Source: Odiellus spinosus (taxonomy: Eukaryota > Arthropoda > Arachnida > Opiliones > Phalangiidae). From it: a stretch of 64,000 bases of DNA. Of this stretch, positions 1,010-46,300 are shown piece by piece (within the stretch, counting starts at the first letter, position 1; each line of letters begins with the position of its first letter). Under the pieces are notes generated by a model, which saw only the letters and a program-made list of their open reading frames with translations, ran no database searches and was not told the DNA's origin. Where the stretch lies: contig OY987230.1 in the NCBI GenBank assembly GCA_963920705.1, forward strand, positions 16,269,320-16,333,319, given 5' to 3'. A program made the position numbers and the translations under genes.

Positions 1010-1416
1010 TCACGCGTTGGTTTCGTCACTAACGTCATTTTCAGACACAAATGATGAATCTTTGTCACCAGAAACTTCGTTCATTGGGATTAAAGTGTTA
1101 TTTGTCGCGTCACTGGAGTCCGAAGTCGCGTTCCTATTGGCTGATTTAGCTCTTAAGTGGCTCAAGGAGGGTGTGGAACGGGGTCCGGGTATAGAAACGG
1201 CGTAGCGATTGTCGTTGACCGCGTGGCTTTGAACCGATTGGAATTCCGTGTGAGTGGACAAAACGGTGTCGTTTTTGTTCCCCTTGGCCGAACTACGACG
1301 ACAGCGGCAAAAATTTTTTAGCGCCGTCATCAGATTAGGATTGAAACACAGATAGATCCATGGGTTGACGCAGCTATTCAGACTCGAAAGCAGCATAAGA
1401 ATGGTTATAACTGGAC
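1010..1416 (-). CDS. VP/OT receptor exon 5 (TM7 and C-terminal tail)
   Basis: Acceptor AATATTTCAG at 1417-1418; the first two bases complete the Gly codon left by exon 4 and give WSG-PVITILMLLSSLNSC. Encodes TM7 with NPWIY and a Ser/Thr-rich tail ending SDETNA and a stop. It lies about 20.3 kb from exon 4; phase and the continuous ECL3/TM7 sequence support the join. Confidence 0.9.
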
Positions 1417-4400
1417 CTGAAATATTGAGAAAAAAAAAACGTGTCTAAATATTTAATGAGATATAGCTGATTTGTACGAATATATCTCTATATATCTATC
1501 TATATATATCAATCTCTATATCTCTATATGTCTATCTCTATATATCAATCTCTATATCTCTATATATCTATCTCTATATATCAATCTCTATATCTATCTC
1601 TATATCTCTACATATCTATCTCTATATATCAATCTCTATATCTCTACATGTCTATCTCTATATATCAATCTCTATATCTCTATATATCTATCTCTATATC
1701 TCTATATATCTATCTCTATATCTCTATATATCTATCTCTATATCTCTATATATCTATCTCTATATCTCTATATATCTATCTCTATATCTCTATCTCTATA
1801 TCTCTATATATCTATCTCTATATCTCTATATATCTATTTCTATATCTCTATATAGCTATATATCTATCTCTATATCTCTATATATCTATTTCTATATCTC
1901 TATATAGCTATATATCTATCTCTATATAGCTATATATCTATCTCTATATATCTACCTCTATATCTCTATATATCTACCTCTATATCTCTATATATCTATC
2001 TATAATTATATTTATATTTCTGTTCAAAGGAAGTAGAAGAAATGTGAAAGCTTTGATACATCATTTTAAACCATTCCTATTAGTCGAGGAGACAATAGGG
2101 TGAACCGTCGGATTCGGTATGACTAAGGTTTTTTGATTGATTCCGGTATTTTAGAGGGTGCTGATCACGAATCTGCCGGGTGCCAGAGCGAGAAAGTTGA
2201 GCATTTTAAGTTATGACGTCATCAAGATGACCACTGGTCACCTAACACCAAACGAGTCATATCTCCTTAAATAATGGTCATATAATAACGAGCAGTATAT
2301 CATTTAATAGATAATGAGGCGAGGAACAATATAAAATTATAAGATTTTCCAGGTCTGCCGCCAGGGGGCGCTGTTACGAGTGTAAACTTACCCTTCGGTT
2401 ATTTTTACACACAAAGGATTGTAATACCTCATTTAAAAGCATTTAATTTGCTGATTATAAATATAAACTTGTGTAAGGTTGCAACAGTAGATGTCACTAT
2501 CATAGCGTGGAAACACCCGCCGATGACTCATGAGTCATCGACGCGTGTTCCTCGCTATATTCCGAAGACTCACATTCCGAAGTGGCTTGGCTCAAACGCG
2601 TTTTTATTGTCTGTGGATTTTACGAGTTTTTTGTTCGAAACTGTTACGGACTTCGCTTCTACGTTATGTGGCTACGTGAAAAGTAGTCACGAAACTTTTG
2701 TTATTTTCGATAAATATCAGAAACAGTCGATTAAATCTCATGAAAGAAGTCGACGCTCTGGAAATGTGTCTATAAAGCAAGTAATTTTGACAAAGGAGAC
2801 AGTTCTTCCACCCATAGATATGATAATGAAAAGTGATGATAATAAACGTGAACTAATCAAAGCTCTCTGCAGTTCTAACTTAGAAACTAATCTCCATCTT
2901 ATTGGGGAGGAGAAATGTTTGTTTCAACACGAAGAGGCTGACGTGACAATTATTAGCTATCTCCTTAAACTCCATTCCGAAGGAAGAACTCATATTCGAG
3001 TAACAGCCGACGATACAGATATTTTTCTCCTTCTAATCTACTTTGTTTGGAAATACAAAATAAGTTCAACAGTTTCAATGAAGAAGTTTGATGGAAGAAT
3101 AATTGATATAAATAAAACAGCTTCAAATCTAGGAGCTAGGAGATAGAGCTGGGTCGATTTTGCCTTTTCATGCCTTGACTGGATGTGATTCTGTTTCTTA
3201 TCCTTTCGGAAAAGGCAAAGTCAGTGCCTTAAAATCGTTTTTAAAAACCAACATTGATCTCTCCTCTATGTGTGACCACGAAGCCCTAGGAGAAACTTAC
3301 ATGAAAGCGGGGACATCTTTCATGATTAGTTTATACGGAGGTAACAAAGATAATCATGACTTGAGCACATTAAGGTATGAAATTTTTAGCCGAAGGAAGG
3401 ACCCACCAAAGATTAAATCTCTTCCACCAACCAATGAAGCTGCTATTCAACATATTAAGCGTGCTCGACTTCAAGTAATGATTTTGTGTGCCGCTGACAA
3501 GCTTGGACCTCCAAAATTGGAAATTAGAAATTTCGGGTGGCAGTTAGATCAGGAAGTACCTGTGCCGAGTTTTGGAACATCTGCTATAGCCCCTGAAGGA
3601 TTACTAAAAGTTGTTGCTTGCTCTTGCCAATCTAAAAACGCGTGTGAAGGAAAACGATGCACCTGTAAATCATCAGGGTTATCGTGTACTTCTTACTGCA
3701 AATGTGAAGGCGGTGATAACTGCAAAAATCCCAACTCCATCAAAATCCCTATTTTAGAATCTGAAGACGATGAAGGTGATGACGAATAAATATTTTTTCA
3801 ATTCATTTCTATTAACTGAAGTACTTTTTTCTTATTGCGAGTGCATATGTCTTTGAAAAGCTTCTAAATTCATGCTCAAAGCAGCTCAATGCCCATGTTC
3901 ATTCTTGAGATTCAAGCTAGCTCGCTCATAGAAATCTAATGGCGCACAAGCTTGAATCACACAAAAAAGTCATCTTTGGGCATCTATAATCAATAGTTAA
4001 TTTAAAACATTTTAATTATTTCTAAACAGTAAAAGATATGCTTCTAAATTAGGTATAACAAGCCAATATGTGGGTAAAAATAACAGAAAGGTAAGTTTAC
4101 ACTCGTAACAGCGCCCCCTGACGGCAGACATGGAAAATCTTATAATTTTATATTGTTCCTCGCCTCATTATCTATTAAATGATATACTGCTCGTTATTAT
4201 ATGACCATTATTTAAGGAGATAAGACTCGTTTGGTGTTAGGTGACCAGTGGTCATCTTGATGACGTCATAACTTAAAATGCTCAACTTTCTCGCTCTGGC
4301 ACCCGGCAGATTCGTGATCAGCACCCTTGAAAATACCGGAATCAATCAAAAAACTTTAGTCATACCGAATCCGACGGTTCACCCCAAAATAGGGCTTTGT

Positions 4401-7400
4401 CTCCTCGACTATATAAAAGCTTTGACCCTTTGATTTTACTACTCTAAAGTAGCAAAAAAAAAATTAAAATTTGTAGATGTGAATGTAGTTTATATCTTGA
4501 CACATTTTGTAGGTTAGTAAAGTTTTTTTTTTATATTTTATAGTTAACTCTTTTCACTTTAAGAGATGGCCAAAATGTAAATTTTCCTTCGGTTAAATAA
4601 AACATTATTTTAAAACTTTAAAAAAATAAAAAAAATATAATCTTTATTCAAACTTTATGTGGTTTAGGAAGAATAAATCTTTATTTCTTTTGTTTATAAA
4701 CCATAAAACAACGTGAGCCTTTCTCGCAGCAAAACCGGCTTTTTAAACAAATGAACTTGCAGATTTAAACCTAGATGCAGACCAGTGGATTAATACGCCT
4801 TTCTCTTTGTATTAAATCATCCAATGAATAGTGGCAATATATATTAAGGCGGGATGAAAGAAGATACGCCAACATAAGTACCACTATCTCGCTAGGTTTC
4901 ATTCCATTGCTTCTAAATAAATGGCTAGAATACAAGCCGATGAAACAGCGACAAGGCGTATCTTCTTGGATGTTTGAACGTCAACGCCAAGATACTATTC
5001 GCGTTCTCTTTAATAAAGTGATTCAAATAGCGTTGCCAAAGGCAAAACCTCAACGTACACGTTCAAACAACCAGACATAATTCTTTAAAAAGCTTTCCCT
5101 TTAGAATATCCCGCGCGAAGATGCCATAACCCCTTAGTGCTTTTGACAGGAGATTCAAAAGAGCTTTTGTTGGGTTTTATGTTCCTTTGTTTCGTGGCTC
5201 ATGCACGTTAATGTATACACTTTTACGACCTTAAAAGGATCCATTATTAGCGTACATATAACACGTTTATGACGGAAATATTAAGACTCTTCTAAGAATA
5301 AAATTCTTCTAGATCTTTTTTTCGGTTATTTTTTTATTCGTTAAGACTTTATTTCCATTCTAGACTAATTCTTACGCAAACACGGTCCTAAAGGGGGATT
5401 TATTCTTAGTATAGGGGATGGATACTAGAGGATATATACGCAATCCCTTGAAATCTCGAGGCTTTGCAGTTTGCAATTGCAAGAGAGCCCCCAAAACGTA
5501 GAGGGAGCGTGAAATTGTCTGTTGAATCCATTTTAATTATATTTAATTAGTAATAATTTATCGAATGACTATTTGTTAATTCACCGTAATTAATACTGAC
5601 GAATTAAAGTAAACCAGCAAGCTGACTCGATTCGGGCCTTGTGCAATTGATCTCGCGCCAATTTCGCGATAGACTAAAATTCCCGAGGCTGATTTTATAT
5701 AAGTGTGAGGTGACGTCGGTTTTACTTTTCATTTAAATATGATCCCTAAGCCTAAATACGCCTATTGGCAAAGCGCGAAAGGAAGACAAATCGTGCTTCA
5801 TCAAAAAAGGAATTAGGTTAACTAGCACAGTTTAAAATCAAAGGAATAAAGTATTAAGTTTAAGTTTTGACACCACCTTATCAATCTAAATCGATCGAAG
5901 GAAATGGGTATGTCTCTCTTAAATTGAATGTACACTACAGTTCAGCTTCGACAGTACATTGGACGAGAAAATAGATCAAATATTTTGTACACCCTAGTTC
6001 TCAAGTGTCTACCCCTTCAGTATTCCTTTATAACAAGTCATTTTTGGTAGATTTTCTCGCGGTGGCGCAGCCGTGGCGGAAAAGGTGCCAATCAAAGTCG
6101 TATTAGTAAAGCTCCCTGATTCGGCTTCACTTATATCGTAAACAATTCTCGTTTGTCAGTGAAGCTTAAACCGATGGAAAACTTAGGAGTAGGGTCACGT
6201 CTGGTATACGGAACAGTATAAAAAAGCTAATAGAATGTGAGATTTTCTAGATGACAAGACAAAGATCCGAATAAGTTACGTTGAGGTAATGGTAGAAAGA
6301 AAACATCTATATACCATTGGTATTTCAATATATAACTTAAGAAGTTTGAGCGTAAAGAGAGGCAAGGGGTCATGTAACCTCTTTACCGGAAGAACGCTTT
6401 CAAGCTGGGCTGCGCATAACGTACATTTGACTACTAAAAACATTGCACTGACTATACAATAGGCTTACTATGTTAACTAGTGCAATGCGAGTAATTCAGC
6501 CCAAACCTTTTCACAAATGCTCGAGGTATAGAGGTTCACTATCACTACTCACGCGGACTACTAACAAATTTTGTTTATTTACATCCCAGCTTACAAGGGT
6601 AAATAATGTCACTACCTCACTAAAGGGAAGACACAGTGGTGAGATATAGAAGCCTTTGACGTTTCAAAGCTTGCCTTGCCATCTCCCCAGTTAACTATAG
6701 TTAGGTTTACCCGCCTTTTGAAGAGGTCTGGATTCATAACGATACCTAAAAAGTGATTAAAAGAATGTCTAAAGTGTTCAAGCAAAAATTCGCGCAAAAA
6801 CCATAAGCCATGACGAAATCACCGTCATCTATAAATGGCCCCTTAAATTTTTTATGGGATTTTTCTTTTTTTTCATCATATTTGTAGTCATGGTATCATA
6901 TCGCCTTGCGGGGGGATTATGAAAAAGAAACGAAAACTTAGTTTCTCATAAAAACACTTAATAGTTTTCGTAACTTTTCCCGAACTCGCGATAAAAACTT
7001 TCTGTAGTTAATGACTAATCATAGAGTTTAACAGCGGGATCAAGACTAGATTTCTATATAAAAACAAGAATAAAAAGTCGTAAATACTGAAAAAACCAAA
7101 TTAAAATATAATTCTTCTTTGAAATTTTAAACCAAGTTTTAAAGGTAAACATTATTTTGCAATTATAATTATTGTTTAGGCTTAGGGATTTAGTATCAAC
7201 TCAAAGTTAATTTTGTAAAAAACTGGACCAAAGTAAGAGAAATATAAGTAATTATAAATTACATATGTTACCTACGTCATTTTTAAAGGGTAAGAGCTAA
7301 TATCTGTATAAAATTTTAATTGTTTTTTAACGATCTTTCTTAGTCTTCATGAGAAAAATCGGTTACATTTTAAAAACGTTTTGAGTTATATATAAACTAA

Positions 7401-40300: not shown

Positions 40301-43300
40301 AATATTGCATAACAAATTTATTTTACTAGATATATTTATTTTTTAGTGTTTCAAAAAATGCTCCGACTAATTTTTCGTTCAATATCTACACTTCCCGACT
40401 GCATGCACTTAATTATAAGTTCATTGTCTACTTTTGATTAAACTTTCGGCCCAATTTCTATATTTCGTTACCTCTATATTTCATATATTGGGCCTAAATT
40501 AATAAAATTCATGGCGCAATATATTCAGATTCCCTAGCCAGATTCTAAGTATAGCTGGATAAGGTAAAAAATTAACATACCTAATTCTCTGTTTTCCGTA
40601 CTACTACTAGCATCGATCATGGGCGCGGAATTAAAAGTGGTAAACTCGTCTAAAGGCACTTCAACATCCAAGGCCTTTATGGTATAATTGCAGGTATTGG
40701 TTACGTCCAAATCGGCATCGTACGCTTCGCAGATAATATCAAAAATACCCAAACTGGACAACTTCATTTGATCTTTGAACGTGGCTAAAACGTTGCCAGT
40801 CTCGTCACTAACGCTGCAAGTAGTGTCCAATTTTTTCCCGCTAAAAGATGAGAAGTAATCTGGAGCTACGAGCAACTCTGGGTCGGTATTATCGGGCGGT
40901 ACGTTATCACAGGTTGGGGTTTCTGGAGGTATTTGTTGCGCGCAAGTAGGCGCTTGCGTATTGCTCCATTGTAACGCCTCGGTACACGTTATGACTTCTA
41001 ATTCGCTTTGACTCGCGGGAATAACCGAACCGGAATCGCACGCGAAATGGCAGTTACTACCCACTGTGTGTAATATGGGTCCGACGTTACCGAAATCCTC
41101 GGTGACGTCATCGCAGGTTATACTACCGTTAACGGGAGGCGCTGGGGGTTCGGGACACTGTCCTACCACGTTCACTTTAAATTTACAAAAGGCACTGGTA
41201 CTGTAAAAATAATCCGTGGTGTTGCAGGTATAAACCCGAGGACCTAGTCTTTTAGTTTTCGTCTTAGTGGAACACTTTGTCTTTAATCTCCTCGGAGGTG
41301 AATCGGCCGAATAAGCTACTGGTAGTTTGTACAAGTTATCTTTCCACTGGCCTTTCAATACCACGACGGAATCGGGATCTTGACACTTGATAATTGGTTC
41401 CAATCTTGGAATACATTGGGGTAATGCGTCGGTAACGTTCCACGCGGGCGGTTTGCATTCTATCGTCCAAGAATCGATCATTTTCGCGCGATTTAAATCG
41501 CCACTCGCGTCCGGGATGACCATTAAGTATTCCGATTGGCATCTATAAGTGCAAGAGCTGGAATCCGATCGATATTTTCCGTTTATAGTATCGGCGTCTT
41601 CCAACGATATATCGCCTCGTCTAGGCGACGATACTTCGTTCTCCATCTCTTCGTCCGATTTATCGCTACACATCAAAATCGTATTCTCTATATTGGGTGC
41701 TTTGGGGCAACTGCTGGCTAAAAATGAAAAGGAAAAAGAAATATGGACATGCCTTGCAAGACTAGCTTTTAATTTTCCTAATCTTACTTTGACACTGAGC
41801 TTTAAGCGTTTCATTCCATTTGCTACCAGCGCAAACGATGACGCCTTCGTTGGGGTCTTCGGTGGATAACTCGTATCCGGCGATGCAAAAATATCTGCAT
41901 ATGGTTCCAGTCGGGTAGATGAGAGTTCTGCTAGCGTCCGAGCCAGGATTAAGCGAATCTTCGACCGCCACTAATGTGTCTTCGTCACAAACCACCAAAC
42001 CGTTTTCGGGTCTCTGAGGTGACAGACAGTAAGTGAATTTCGTTGTGGTAGACACTGTAGTCGTGCTGATTTGAGTAGTTGTCTTGGGAATTTGAGTAGT
42101 AGTCTTGGGAACGGGAGCTGTAGTTGGAGGTGGGGTAGTAGTTGAAATTTTAGTAGTGTAATAGTCAGGTCTAGGGGTAATCATGTCGGGCGGTCTCCGG
42201 TTAAACACTGGTTCGGTAGTTAGACCAGGTCTGTACGGTGTCCAACTGGGGGTTGGTCTCGTGCCGTGTGGTATATAAGGTGTCCAACTATAATATCTTG
42301 GGGTTGTTAAATTTGGTCTGTATGGCGTCCAATATGAAGTTGCCTCCGTTCGAGGCGTCGTCCAATAAGGTCTCTCAGTGGTTGTGTAAGGATTTGGCGT
42401 TGGTCGATATGGAGTCGGAGTTTTGGGGTAAGGGCGAGGTGTTGATTGATATTCCCTGGGAGGTGGTCGGTAAGGTCTTTCGGTTGTTCGATAAGGGCTT
42501 TGTGTTGGCCAATAGGGTGTTTGTGTTGACTGGTACGGCCTAGGCGTTGATTGGTATTCTCTAGGTGGTGGACGATATGGTTTAGGTGTTGACTGGTATT
42601 CTCTTGGAGGGTAGTAAGGTATTAGTGTTGTAGTTCGTCTGGGGTCACGACGAGGGTCGTAAGGGCCTGGTGTTGTATTTAATCTGGGGTCACGACGAGG
42701 GTCGTAAGGGCCTGGTGTTGTATTTAATCTGGGGTCGCGACGAGGGTCTTTAGGTGCTGGCGTTGTATTTAATCGAGGGTCACGACGAGGATAGTAAGGA
42801 GCCAGAGTTGTAGTTATTCTAGGGTCATAACGAGGGTCGTATGGTCTAGGCATTGGTCGGTATTCCTTAGGAGGTGGGCGATATGGTCTTTCAGTAGTTC
42901 GGTAAGGACTTTGAGTAGGCCAATACGAAGTTGATGTAGGTCTCGCGGTTGACTGGTATTCTCTGCGCGGTGAGTAATTAGGCACGGTCGGTCTTGTATA
43001 AGGTCTTGGTTTTTCTGAAGTTCTGTAAGGTCTTAGCGTCGTAGGGTAAGTATAGGGCCTTGGTGTAGTAGTGGCTTGGGTGATTATAGAGGTACCGGAT
43101 GAGGCTTTTGGTAACCAAACCAAAAAGAAAGGTTTGTTTTGGCAAATTTGCTTTCCTTTGGCTATGGCCGCTCTATATTAAGGAGTTAATAAGTTAAACT
43201 ACAATAAATAAAATAACCAAAAGATCAGATAATCAATCTTACTTGATAATTTCTTCACATTTCTTAGCGTATTTGCATTCCTTGTCTCGGTTACGTGGAT

Positions 43301-46300
43301 CATGCTTGTGTTTGGGTACAAAACACTTTGGTGGGACTTTTTCACATTTGCGACGCGGGTCTTGATTCGTTGCAGTCGGATACAGTTTTGGGTCGCGCCG
43401 CCTTTGGTCACGACGAGGGTTGTAAGGAGCTAGCGTAGTAGTAAGTCTAGGGTCGCGCCAAGGATCGTAAGAAACTGGCGTTGTAAATAATCTGGGATCA
43501 CGACGAGGGTCGTAAGGTGCTGGCGTTGTACTTAGTCTGGGGTCTTGACGAGGATCGTAAGGAAGAGTTGTAGTTACCACGGAGTCAACCCGATGGCCGT
43601 AAGGATCTGGTTTTGGATAGCTTCTAACATCGTTCTCGGAATTTTCAGGATATCGTCTAGGATCATTGGGATCTTCTGGAACTGGTGTTGAATATAGCCT
43701 TGGATCTTTGCGAGAAATGTCGGTTGTAACTGACGGATCTTTCCTAGAATCTCTCTTGGGTTCTTCAGTGTTTTGTGTAGGGTACTGCCTAGGATCATTA
43801 CGAGAGTCATCAGGAGCTGGTCTTGGATGTTTCCTTGGATCTTTGCGAGGGCCATACGGATATCGTCTAGGATCTTTACGAGGGCCTCGAGGAGGGCGTG
43901 TTTGGTTTCTTCGGGGTGAGGGAGTAGAATACTGTCTTGGATCAAAACGTGGATTGAGAGTTGGGTAAAGCGTTTCCTCAGCTGGAAAATTAGCGGGTGG
44001 TCGTGTTGGATATTTTCTACTATCTTCGCGAGAATTATCAGATCTAGCGGGATAATTTCCAGGATTTTCACGAGAATTGTTAGGTGTTTTTGTTGGATAA
44101 TTATCAGCAGGTCTTAAAGGATAATTTCTAGGGTCTTCACGAGAATTATCGTGTTGTCTAGTTGGATAATTTCTGGGATCGACAGGCGAATTATCCGGTT
44201 GCCTTGTAGGATAATTTTTGGGATCATCATGAGAGTTATCTGGCTGCCTTGAAGGATAATTTCTGGGATCTTCACGAGAGTTATCTGCCTGCCTTGAAGG
44301 ATAATTTCTGGGATCTTCACGAGAATTATCTGGCTGCCTTGATGGATAATTCCTTGGATCTTCACGAGAGTTACCAGGCTGCCTTGATGGATAACTCCTG
44401 GGATTATCACGAGAGTTACCTGGCTGTCTTGATGGATAATTTCTGGGATCTTCACGCGGATTACCAGGCTGCCTTGATGGATAATTTCTGGGATCTTCAC
44501 GCGGATTACCAGGCTGCCTTGATGGATAATTTCTGGGATCTTCACGCGGATTACCAGGCTGCCTTGATGGGTAATTTCTTGGATCTTCACGAGAGTTATC
44601 TGGCTGCCTTGATGGATTATTCCTGGGATATTCACGAGAGTTATCTGGCTGCCTTGATGGATAATTCCTGGGATCGTCACGAGAGTTATCTGGCTTCCTG
44701 GATGGATAATTCCTGGGATCTTCACGTGAATTTTCAGGTTGTCTTGATTGATCATTCCTATGATCTAGAGGCAAATTATCCGGCGGCCGTGTTGGATATC
44801 GCCTACCGTGTACTTGCGTATCTTCAACAGGTTCCTCCCTCCTTGGTTCGGCTCTCCCATACAGCCTCGGGTCCCTTCTATTGTCCAAATGTCGGCCATT
44901 CGAGAGTGAATAATATTTAGGATCCCTACGCGGATCAGGAGTAGTAGATATTTCGACAGCATTAGGTCTTGGTGTTTGATATGGATCGTAATGAGACTTG
45001 GTAACTCTGCGTCCTCTAAACCGTCTAGGATCTTGAGTTCTGACTGTGTCGTTAGAATATAGGTGATAATCTTGAGGCTTCGGATGTAACCCGAGCTCAC
45101 GATCTCTTCGTGGATCAGAAGAAAACGGGGTAGGGTGGCGATCATAATGATGACTCCTAATTTCGACCGAATGACGTTCATGATGACGTTTAGGGTGATT
45201 ATTGGGTTGAGACGAACGATGAAAATCTCTAGGAACTGTTTGTGGAGAGGGGTAATCCCCGAAAGTGACTTCAGCCGAAGCGGACACGTAAACTTGCGGT
45301 TGATCTTTACGTAGGGATTCTGGGATACTGTTAATTCGATTCTTTCTGTGGAAAAGAATGAATAAATCTATCTATTACCCAACTTTCTCATATCTCAAAC
45401 TGTATTTAATCAATACTTTCAAAACAAAAAACATATTGACTAAACAAAACTGTTGCAAAAATTAATAAAAAGATAAATGACATCCATATTTTAAAGTTCG
45501 TCCAAACAGTTTATGAAGATATTTTAAACATAACACTGCCACAATTTAAAACCCTTATCATTTCATACACTTGAGACTGTCTTTCCAGCACTCTCTAAAT
45601 TCACAAACGGGGGAGGTCAAGAGAGACACAAGAGCTAAACTTAGAAACCCTAAACTCTCCCAGCAGATTTAAGGGAACATCGGTGCCCCATTACACGGTC
45701 TCCTGGAACTCTAAAACAAACTAGGCGAAGACTGCTCCACCCGTAATGAGCAATAGATTCAAAGGCAAAACACCTCCTTTATTATACTTCGGTAAAAGGG
45801 ATTATAATTAAAACTAGACAATATCAAGCTATGGATAAGAAATTAAACTCTCAATTATTTTGGTTAGTGAACCAAATATAGTTTGCTTTATAATAAAAAC
45901 TAATACCATGTTTGAAATTTCAACACGTTAATATTATCTTTATGTTTTGGTTTTAAAGAGTTGAGAGCGAACTATAACTTTGAACTTGATGAATACTAGA
46001 TTAGGCTTAGTGTATAATAATAGTTTTACCACTAGCGCAATCTCTGATTGGTTTCGCATATTTGAGGCAGACCTAACATTGTTTACAGTTGCGTTCTCAA
46101 CGAGGCGATCTTTTGCGCTATTCATCCGGCTAAATAGTTTCAATGAAGATAAAGGGCAGGAATGAGGGATGATCTTCCATCATTTTAGAAGATAAAACCA
46201 TCCATTATCCTAAGTTTACTCAACTAGCTTCAATTCGGTAAACAAAATTTGATAGCGAGGGAGTTAGTTATTCGGAATTAAAGCAAGAAGATTAAAGGCA

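Follow-up and report, generated by a model that had tools for sequence, protein, structure and literature searches.

The 64,000-nucleotide stretch of the Odiellus spinosus genome analysed here (C6:16269320-16333319, hereafter the window) carries a recently mobile, well-defined, internally deleted and non-autonomous DNA transposon at positions 2081-4411. We assign the element, with a probability of about 85%, to an Academ-type cut-and-paste family and, by its features, to the AcademX lineage. The protein family of which the element keeps a remnant serves the group as its mobility protein, because its members lie between inverted repeats in all six lineages read and no other long frame is present in an intact 5724-bp element of the same genome. 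An earlier note on this DNA had already suggested that the protein family is mobility protein or cargo, and the first of these is borne out. Matches to the element and its protein were sought throughout the 443-Mb genome.

The element (2331 bp; no strand is assigned to it, to its duplications or to the palindrome described below) has the termini TAGTCGAGGAG...CTCCTCGACTA. Its left inverted repeat at 2081-2442 (plus strand) pairs with the right one at 4038-4411 (minus strand), the two differing in length by 10 bp near the tip. A 316-nt ungapped core (2098-2413 with 4069-4384) is 97% complementary, and, given the 10-bp length difference close to the left tip, the outermost 15 bp of both arms also pair, in agreement with the long, near-identical repeats first noticed in the window. 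The trinucleotide TAT flanks the element at 2078-2080 and again at 4412-4414. The span had been given as 2083-4409 and is corrected to 2081-4411, TA being part of the terminus. No second copy was found within the 64-kb window. In the genome, C6 (two), C12 and C2 carry four copies that share these ends and measure exactly 2331 bp, with 0-12 pairwise differences, and the copies lie in four different flanking contexts with the duplications TAT, TAC, TAG and TAT. An ordinary host gene or pseudogene lying by chance between inverted repeats is a reading to which we give practically no weight; for the window element it is refuted by the near-identical units at four sites together with the exact empty sites of one of them (L011).

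The length of the target-site duplication separates this element from the family that its flanks first call to mind. If GTCGAG (GCCCAG in a related family) is regarded as the start of the element, TA flanks 11 of 11 copies, as would be expected of a Tc1/mariner-type element with a TA duplication and a captured host gene. When the ends are read as TAG...CTA, a 3-bp duplication is found in all six copies of the window family (TAT, GTA, TTT, TAG, TAT, TAC) and all five of the related family (TAA, ATA, CAA, TTA, TAG). Two further lineages have it in three of four copies (L062 TTA, L064 CAA, L063 TCA; none in L052), and in L053 it is AAT. This amounts to 15 of the 17 copies examined, or 15 of the 16 with both ends placed, in a count that leaves out two one-ended copies, L014 (C1) and L015 (C36).

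Empty sites were sought with 11 joined flanks as query; scoring covered 40 of 1910 candidates, which makes the match counts lower bounds. For the joined flanks of L011, with a single TAG, at least 38 places were identical along the full 137 bp and a further one matched at 97%; the related family's copy on C14 gave joined flanks that matched C3:7552389-7552525 at 100% over 137 bp. These empty sites carry a single copy of the 3-bp TAG or TAA. One match, at 80% over the whole length, was obtained for L010. The other eight joined flanks had no match among the candidates scored, which says little: C2a, C2b and C6 had 17-20 right-flank bases, and C3 was one base off at the join. Because the empty sites of the sister copy L011 and of the related-family copy on C14 are exact, the target duplication is 3 bp and the terminal TA is part of the element. 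The TA flanks reported for the window, and the TA duplications that were to be looked for in other copies, are replaced accordingly by a 3-bp duplication with TA inside the terminus. The Tc1/mariner reading is refuted by the empty sites and is next to impossible; in addition, Pfam scans of the long-copy proteins at expectation values (E) up to 1 returned no mariner-type transposase, and the protein lies between inverted repeats in 6/6 lineages. L011 itself is inserted in a recent, high-copy repeat with at least 39 further copies; over 137 bp, 38 of these are identical.

Comparison with a longer copy accounts for the size of the window element. L009 (C8) is 5559 bp long, has the same ends as the 2331-bp copies and holds the DNA missing from them: positions 1-559 of the window element align with 1-548 of L009, and 554-2331 with 3789-5559. 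All four short copies share the junction of this deletion of about 3.2 kb near window position 2640 (2634-2643, plus strand) and a 7-bp insertion near 3135 that breaks the frame and is not in L009 (3135-3141, plus strand; its placement within a local repeat is arbitrary). The frame of L009 is open for 1133 codons, with the N-terminal part in other frames, and L010 (C18) is a more degraded copy of about 5.5 kb with related ends and a length similar to that of L009.

What is left of the coding region in the window is a dead remnant. The first coding remnant (2643-3146, plus strand) corresponds to the XPG-like part; its start lies shortly ahead of the second conserved Asp (IFDKY), and it runs past DDTD and ends at TAG. 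The second (3160-3789, plus strand) extends from the HALTGCD motif through the C-terminal cysteine cluster. With the frame broken at about 3135-3146, two open reading frames (ORFs) result, 2448-3146 and 3160-3789, and in the former roughly the first 60 codons, as far as the junction at about 2640, consist of leader or inverted-repeat sequence. The motifs EADV, DDTD and HALTGCDSVSYPFGKGK and the cysteine cluster are all encoded in the element, as had been reported, but the single whole protein assumed to carry them is not. The frame-broken coding stretch lacks the entire D-D-E core together with the first XPG-type Asp, and the N-terminal motifs are missing as well. The window copy has no such core because the internal deletion removed it.

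The leader upstream of the junction contains an inner palindromic stretch at 2502-2558 (58 aligned columns, 86% self-complementary) that is also present in L009, L011, L012 and L013. It includes GATGACTCATGAGTCATC and is possibly a regulatory or protein-binding site. Other reduced forms occur in the genome. At C2:32550887-32552504, C3:25044724-25046341, C8:6093667-6095191, C12:17607626-17609151 and C107:2090574-2092098, C-terminal fragments form inverted, divergent pairs with about 0.5 kb between the two members, and these five loci look like palindromic foldback-type deletion derivatives. Matches to a 53-bp tip were considered as separate elements and rejected: the four of six that were read (L068-L071, on C144, C84, C33 and C14) are each a tip fragment within another repeat, and no second tip was found near them within the 1.6 kb read. 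The host-repeat copies at these four loci are 98.6-100% identical over 1.2-1.6 kb.

A search with the second remnant of the window, in which 150 of 219 candidates were scored, gave at least 140 matches in the same genome, some copies matching more than once. Six lineages were read (L009, L044, L052, L053, L054 and L062), and each is bounded by inverted repeats, which answers the question, posed when the element was first noticed, of whether other copies of the protein are so enclosed. In L052, L053, L054, L062 and L064 the repeats measure 250-377 bp at 84.8-98.6% identity; for L063 the second tip was also located, farther out than the stretch first inspected. Among the loci that were read, a set outside which most of the 140 matches lie, no family member sits in an ordinary gene without inverted repeats, and a domesticated member elsewhere in the genome is possible.

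An intact relative is the 5724-bp element at C14:155758-161481. It has a frame of 1464 codons, the next longest stop-to-stop frame being 168, and its inverted repeats, which match at 83% in a 90-bp alignment, have the tip TAGCCCAGTAAA in common. The 1464-codon frame is present in five copies in total. Compared at both ends, outside the 2.2 kb between them, the four others differ from the C14 copy by 0-1 differences in 2542 bp at one end; at the other, 982 bp contain 0-2 bp differences and no more than one gap. The length of the longer relatives is about 5.3-6.2 kb, most of them have TAG...CTA ends, and the frame is open over 1445-1604 codons in four lineages. Further members have 1587 (L052), 1475 (L063), 1604 (L053) and 299 and 1094 (L054) codons, and the L062/L064 lineage has 1445 and 1292 plus 180. 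The replacement-to-silent ratio is 0.42-0.43 for L009-L010, 0.61 for L062-L064, 0.77 for L052-L063 and 0.27 for L009 against the second remnant of the window (three changes of each kind). With so few differences, these ratios do no more than hint at selection on the protein. In a scan of short conserved patterns no relatives were found in viral contigs or prokaryote genomes. None were found in phages, and a query of PHROGs with two proteins gave two weak matches for one and none for the other.

An alignment of five proteins (set A1), later widened to the six lineages and numbered here after L044, contains two sets of conserved residues. The first, D432, D435, D600, H631 and E845, is conserved in 6/6 lineages and forms a D/D/H/E core upstream of the XPG-like part; it probably represents an RNase-H-type transposase. 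In this region Pfam family DUF6589 (PF20231) exceeds its cut-off of 27 bits at two places, both in the L062/L064 lineage (37.4 and 37.0 bits). The earlier description of the window element as having no visible transposase is therefore not supported for the group: relatives have the D/D/H/E core, with DUF6589 over cut-off in one lineage, and the window copy lost that core by deletion.

The second set, D1072, D1112, D/E1182, D1184, D1206, D1208 and D1264, is likewise conserved in 6/6 lineages, and the order of motifs is that of XPG/FEN1 nucleases. In hhalign, a profile of this part of the family matches L057, an EXO1-like protein encoded in this genome, with a probability of 87.3 (E 3.8e-6, score 50), and 20 of 20 shuffled controls score at or below 17.7. 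Pfam XPG_I is over cut-off in L057, to which the name EXO1 was assigned by eye. Scans with single members gave 5_3_exonuc_N (E 0.11) and NYN_YacP (E 0.22) below threshold. At the level of sequence, homology of the family to XPG nucleases is established by this match, and the XPG/PIN-like domain claimed from the window copy stands, supported also by the acidic set in 6/6 lineages. The FEN1/XPG-type domain is probably an accessory nuclease of the mobility protein.

That the XPG/PIN-like domain itself catalyses transposition, without a DDE enzyme, was the strongest reading of the earlier note. Its acidic set is conserved in all six lineages, it is the sole recognisable enzyme part remaining in the window copy, and for the upstream core an RNase-H fold is one that we infer. 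We nevertheless consider the proposal very improbable: the upstream D/D/H/E set is equally conserved in 6/6 lineages, in a region that DUF6589 matches in one of them. FEN1/XPG enzymes are hydrolases, and none is known to join strands.

The cysteine cluster is usual in relatives, although it is absent from L062, which was read to the protein end. It had been called a tesmin/TSO1-type CXC cluster. A C-terminal cysteine cluster is indeed present in the window, but the Pfam CXC models remain under their cut-offs there (MSL2-CXC 14.1 of 26.7 bits; TCR 11.7 of 23.5). N-terminal Cys/His motifs were seen by eye in relatives. The L062/L064 lineage, which as seen in L062 has the core and the XPG-type motifs without the cysteine cluster, is the lineage that DUF6589 recognises.

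For the Academ-type element, the following mechanism is the most likely one. The N-terminal Cys/His motifs and the cysteine cluster would bind DNA, and the D...D...H...E core would cut the ends and join them to the target with a 3-nt stagger, which would give rise to the 3-bp duplication. When the element is excised or the gap is filled, the FEN1/XPG-type domain would process flaps or else the second strand. The 2331-bp copies, which retain both ends, would be moved in trans by the protein of a full-length relative. A more demanding version, which we put forward tentatively and regard as somewhat doubtful, is a two-nuclease machine in which strand transfer falls to a DUF6589-type D/D/E core, and the cutting or trimming of the other strand to an integral FEN1/XPG-type enzyme; neither could be dispensed with, so that cutting, joining and flap repair reside in one polypeptide. 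The near-identical intact copies suggest that such one-polypeptide machinery still works.

Several results weigh against the assignment and the domain reading given above. DUF6589 is under cut-off in all five A1 members, of which two match (best E 0.028). The L057 match is one-to-one, with 21% identity over 163 columns, and covers all XPG-type acidic residues except D1072, which is placed by position only. A profile search against solved structures gave no match at E 10, and prediction from the single sequence of the window remnant (386 residues) gave no fold, with a mean predicted local distance difference test score (pLDDT) of 35.6. L052 departs from the 3-bp duplication, and the outer ends of L054 are not placeable. 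The window's own family contains no fully open copy among those read, and we infer that the short copies were moved by a protein of some relative. The link to Academ was drawn from descriptions rather than from an Academ reference sequence, and AcademX reportedly carries an XPG nuclease, according to Kojima in 2020.

The name Academ nonetheless fits the group by its described features, and on those descriptions we consider it likely to be correct. A superfamily distinct from Academ, sharing merely the 3-bp duplication and the nuclease, would be compatible with a comparison made by description and not by sequence, and the accessible portions of the literature searched contain no recognisable account of TAG...CTA ends or of an XPG-cysteine-cluster protein. 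This alternative is unlikely, since duplication length, nuclease, putative DDD/E-type core and element length (bivalve mean 5565 bp, PMC10294476) agree with what the excerpts report for Academ/AcademX. The group, first thought to be poorly described, is probably not undescribed; it matches the AcademX description, with 3-4 bp duplications and a nuclease, in the available part of PMC10045372.

Proteins with HALTGCD, EADV/DDTD and a cysteine cluster are multi-copy and unnamed in invertebrate genomes. The present elements explain this class, here as probable transposases, and link Pfam DUF6589 to it. The genome offers full-length copies that are nearly identical as well as exact empty sites, and this makes the role of the XPG-type nuclease in such transposons directly testable.

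Around the element, the window contains an ORF at 1010-1396 (minus strand) with NSCVNPWIYLCF, which we take to resemble the final helix of a G-protein-coupled receptor of class A. A long simple repeat array of TATCTC type occupies 1399-2010 and ends about 70 bp before the element. At 42001-44000, G+C reaches 0.47 and GC skew +0.35, a maximum among the 2-kb steps.

Among known systems, Tc1/mariner elements resemble the window element at first sight in the TA beside the ends; here, however, the duplication is 3 bp and the protein is different and much larger. FEN1/XPG/EXO1 nucleases share collinear acidic motifs and the L057 profile match, whereas here the domain is C-terminal in a transposon protein at 21% identity, and in the window copy the first Asp is missing and the frame is broken. 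DUF6589, a Pfam family of unknown function that is mostly fungal, is over cut-off in one lineage and below threshold in two of five other members; its name was not met in the literature searched. No helicase was present among the Pfam families matched by five members at E up to 1. A RecQ helicase is mentioned for Academ in the part seen of PMC3627910. AcademH belongs to the same superfamily according to the literature, but its duplications are 9 or 10 bp and it has a helicase, in contrast to the 3 bp found here, while AcademX duplications are 3 or 4 bp, in an account that relates these elements to "helicase and nuclease" (PMC10045372, in excerpt). Unlike AcademX as described, the window copy is deleted and non-autonomous, and the TAG...CTA ends and cysteine cluster are described from the elements here only. 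Like AcademX, as far as the consulted passages go, the elements combine a 3-bp duplication, which is the length given for Academ (PMC5199201), an encoded nuclease (PMC10045372), a putative core of the DDD/E type, Academ being listed among the DDD/E transposase superfamilies (PMC9587614), and a length of about 5.5 kb, close to the bivalve Academ mean (PMC10294476).

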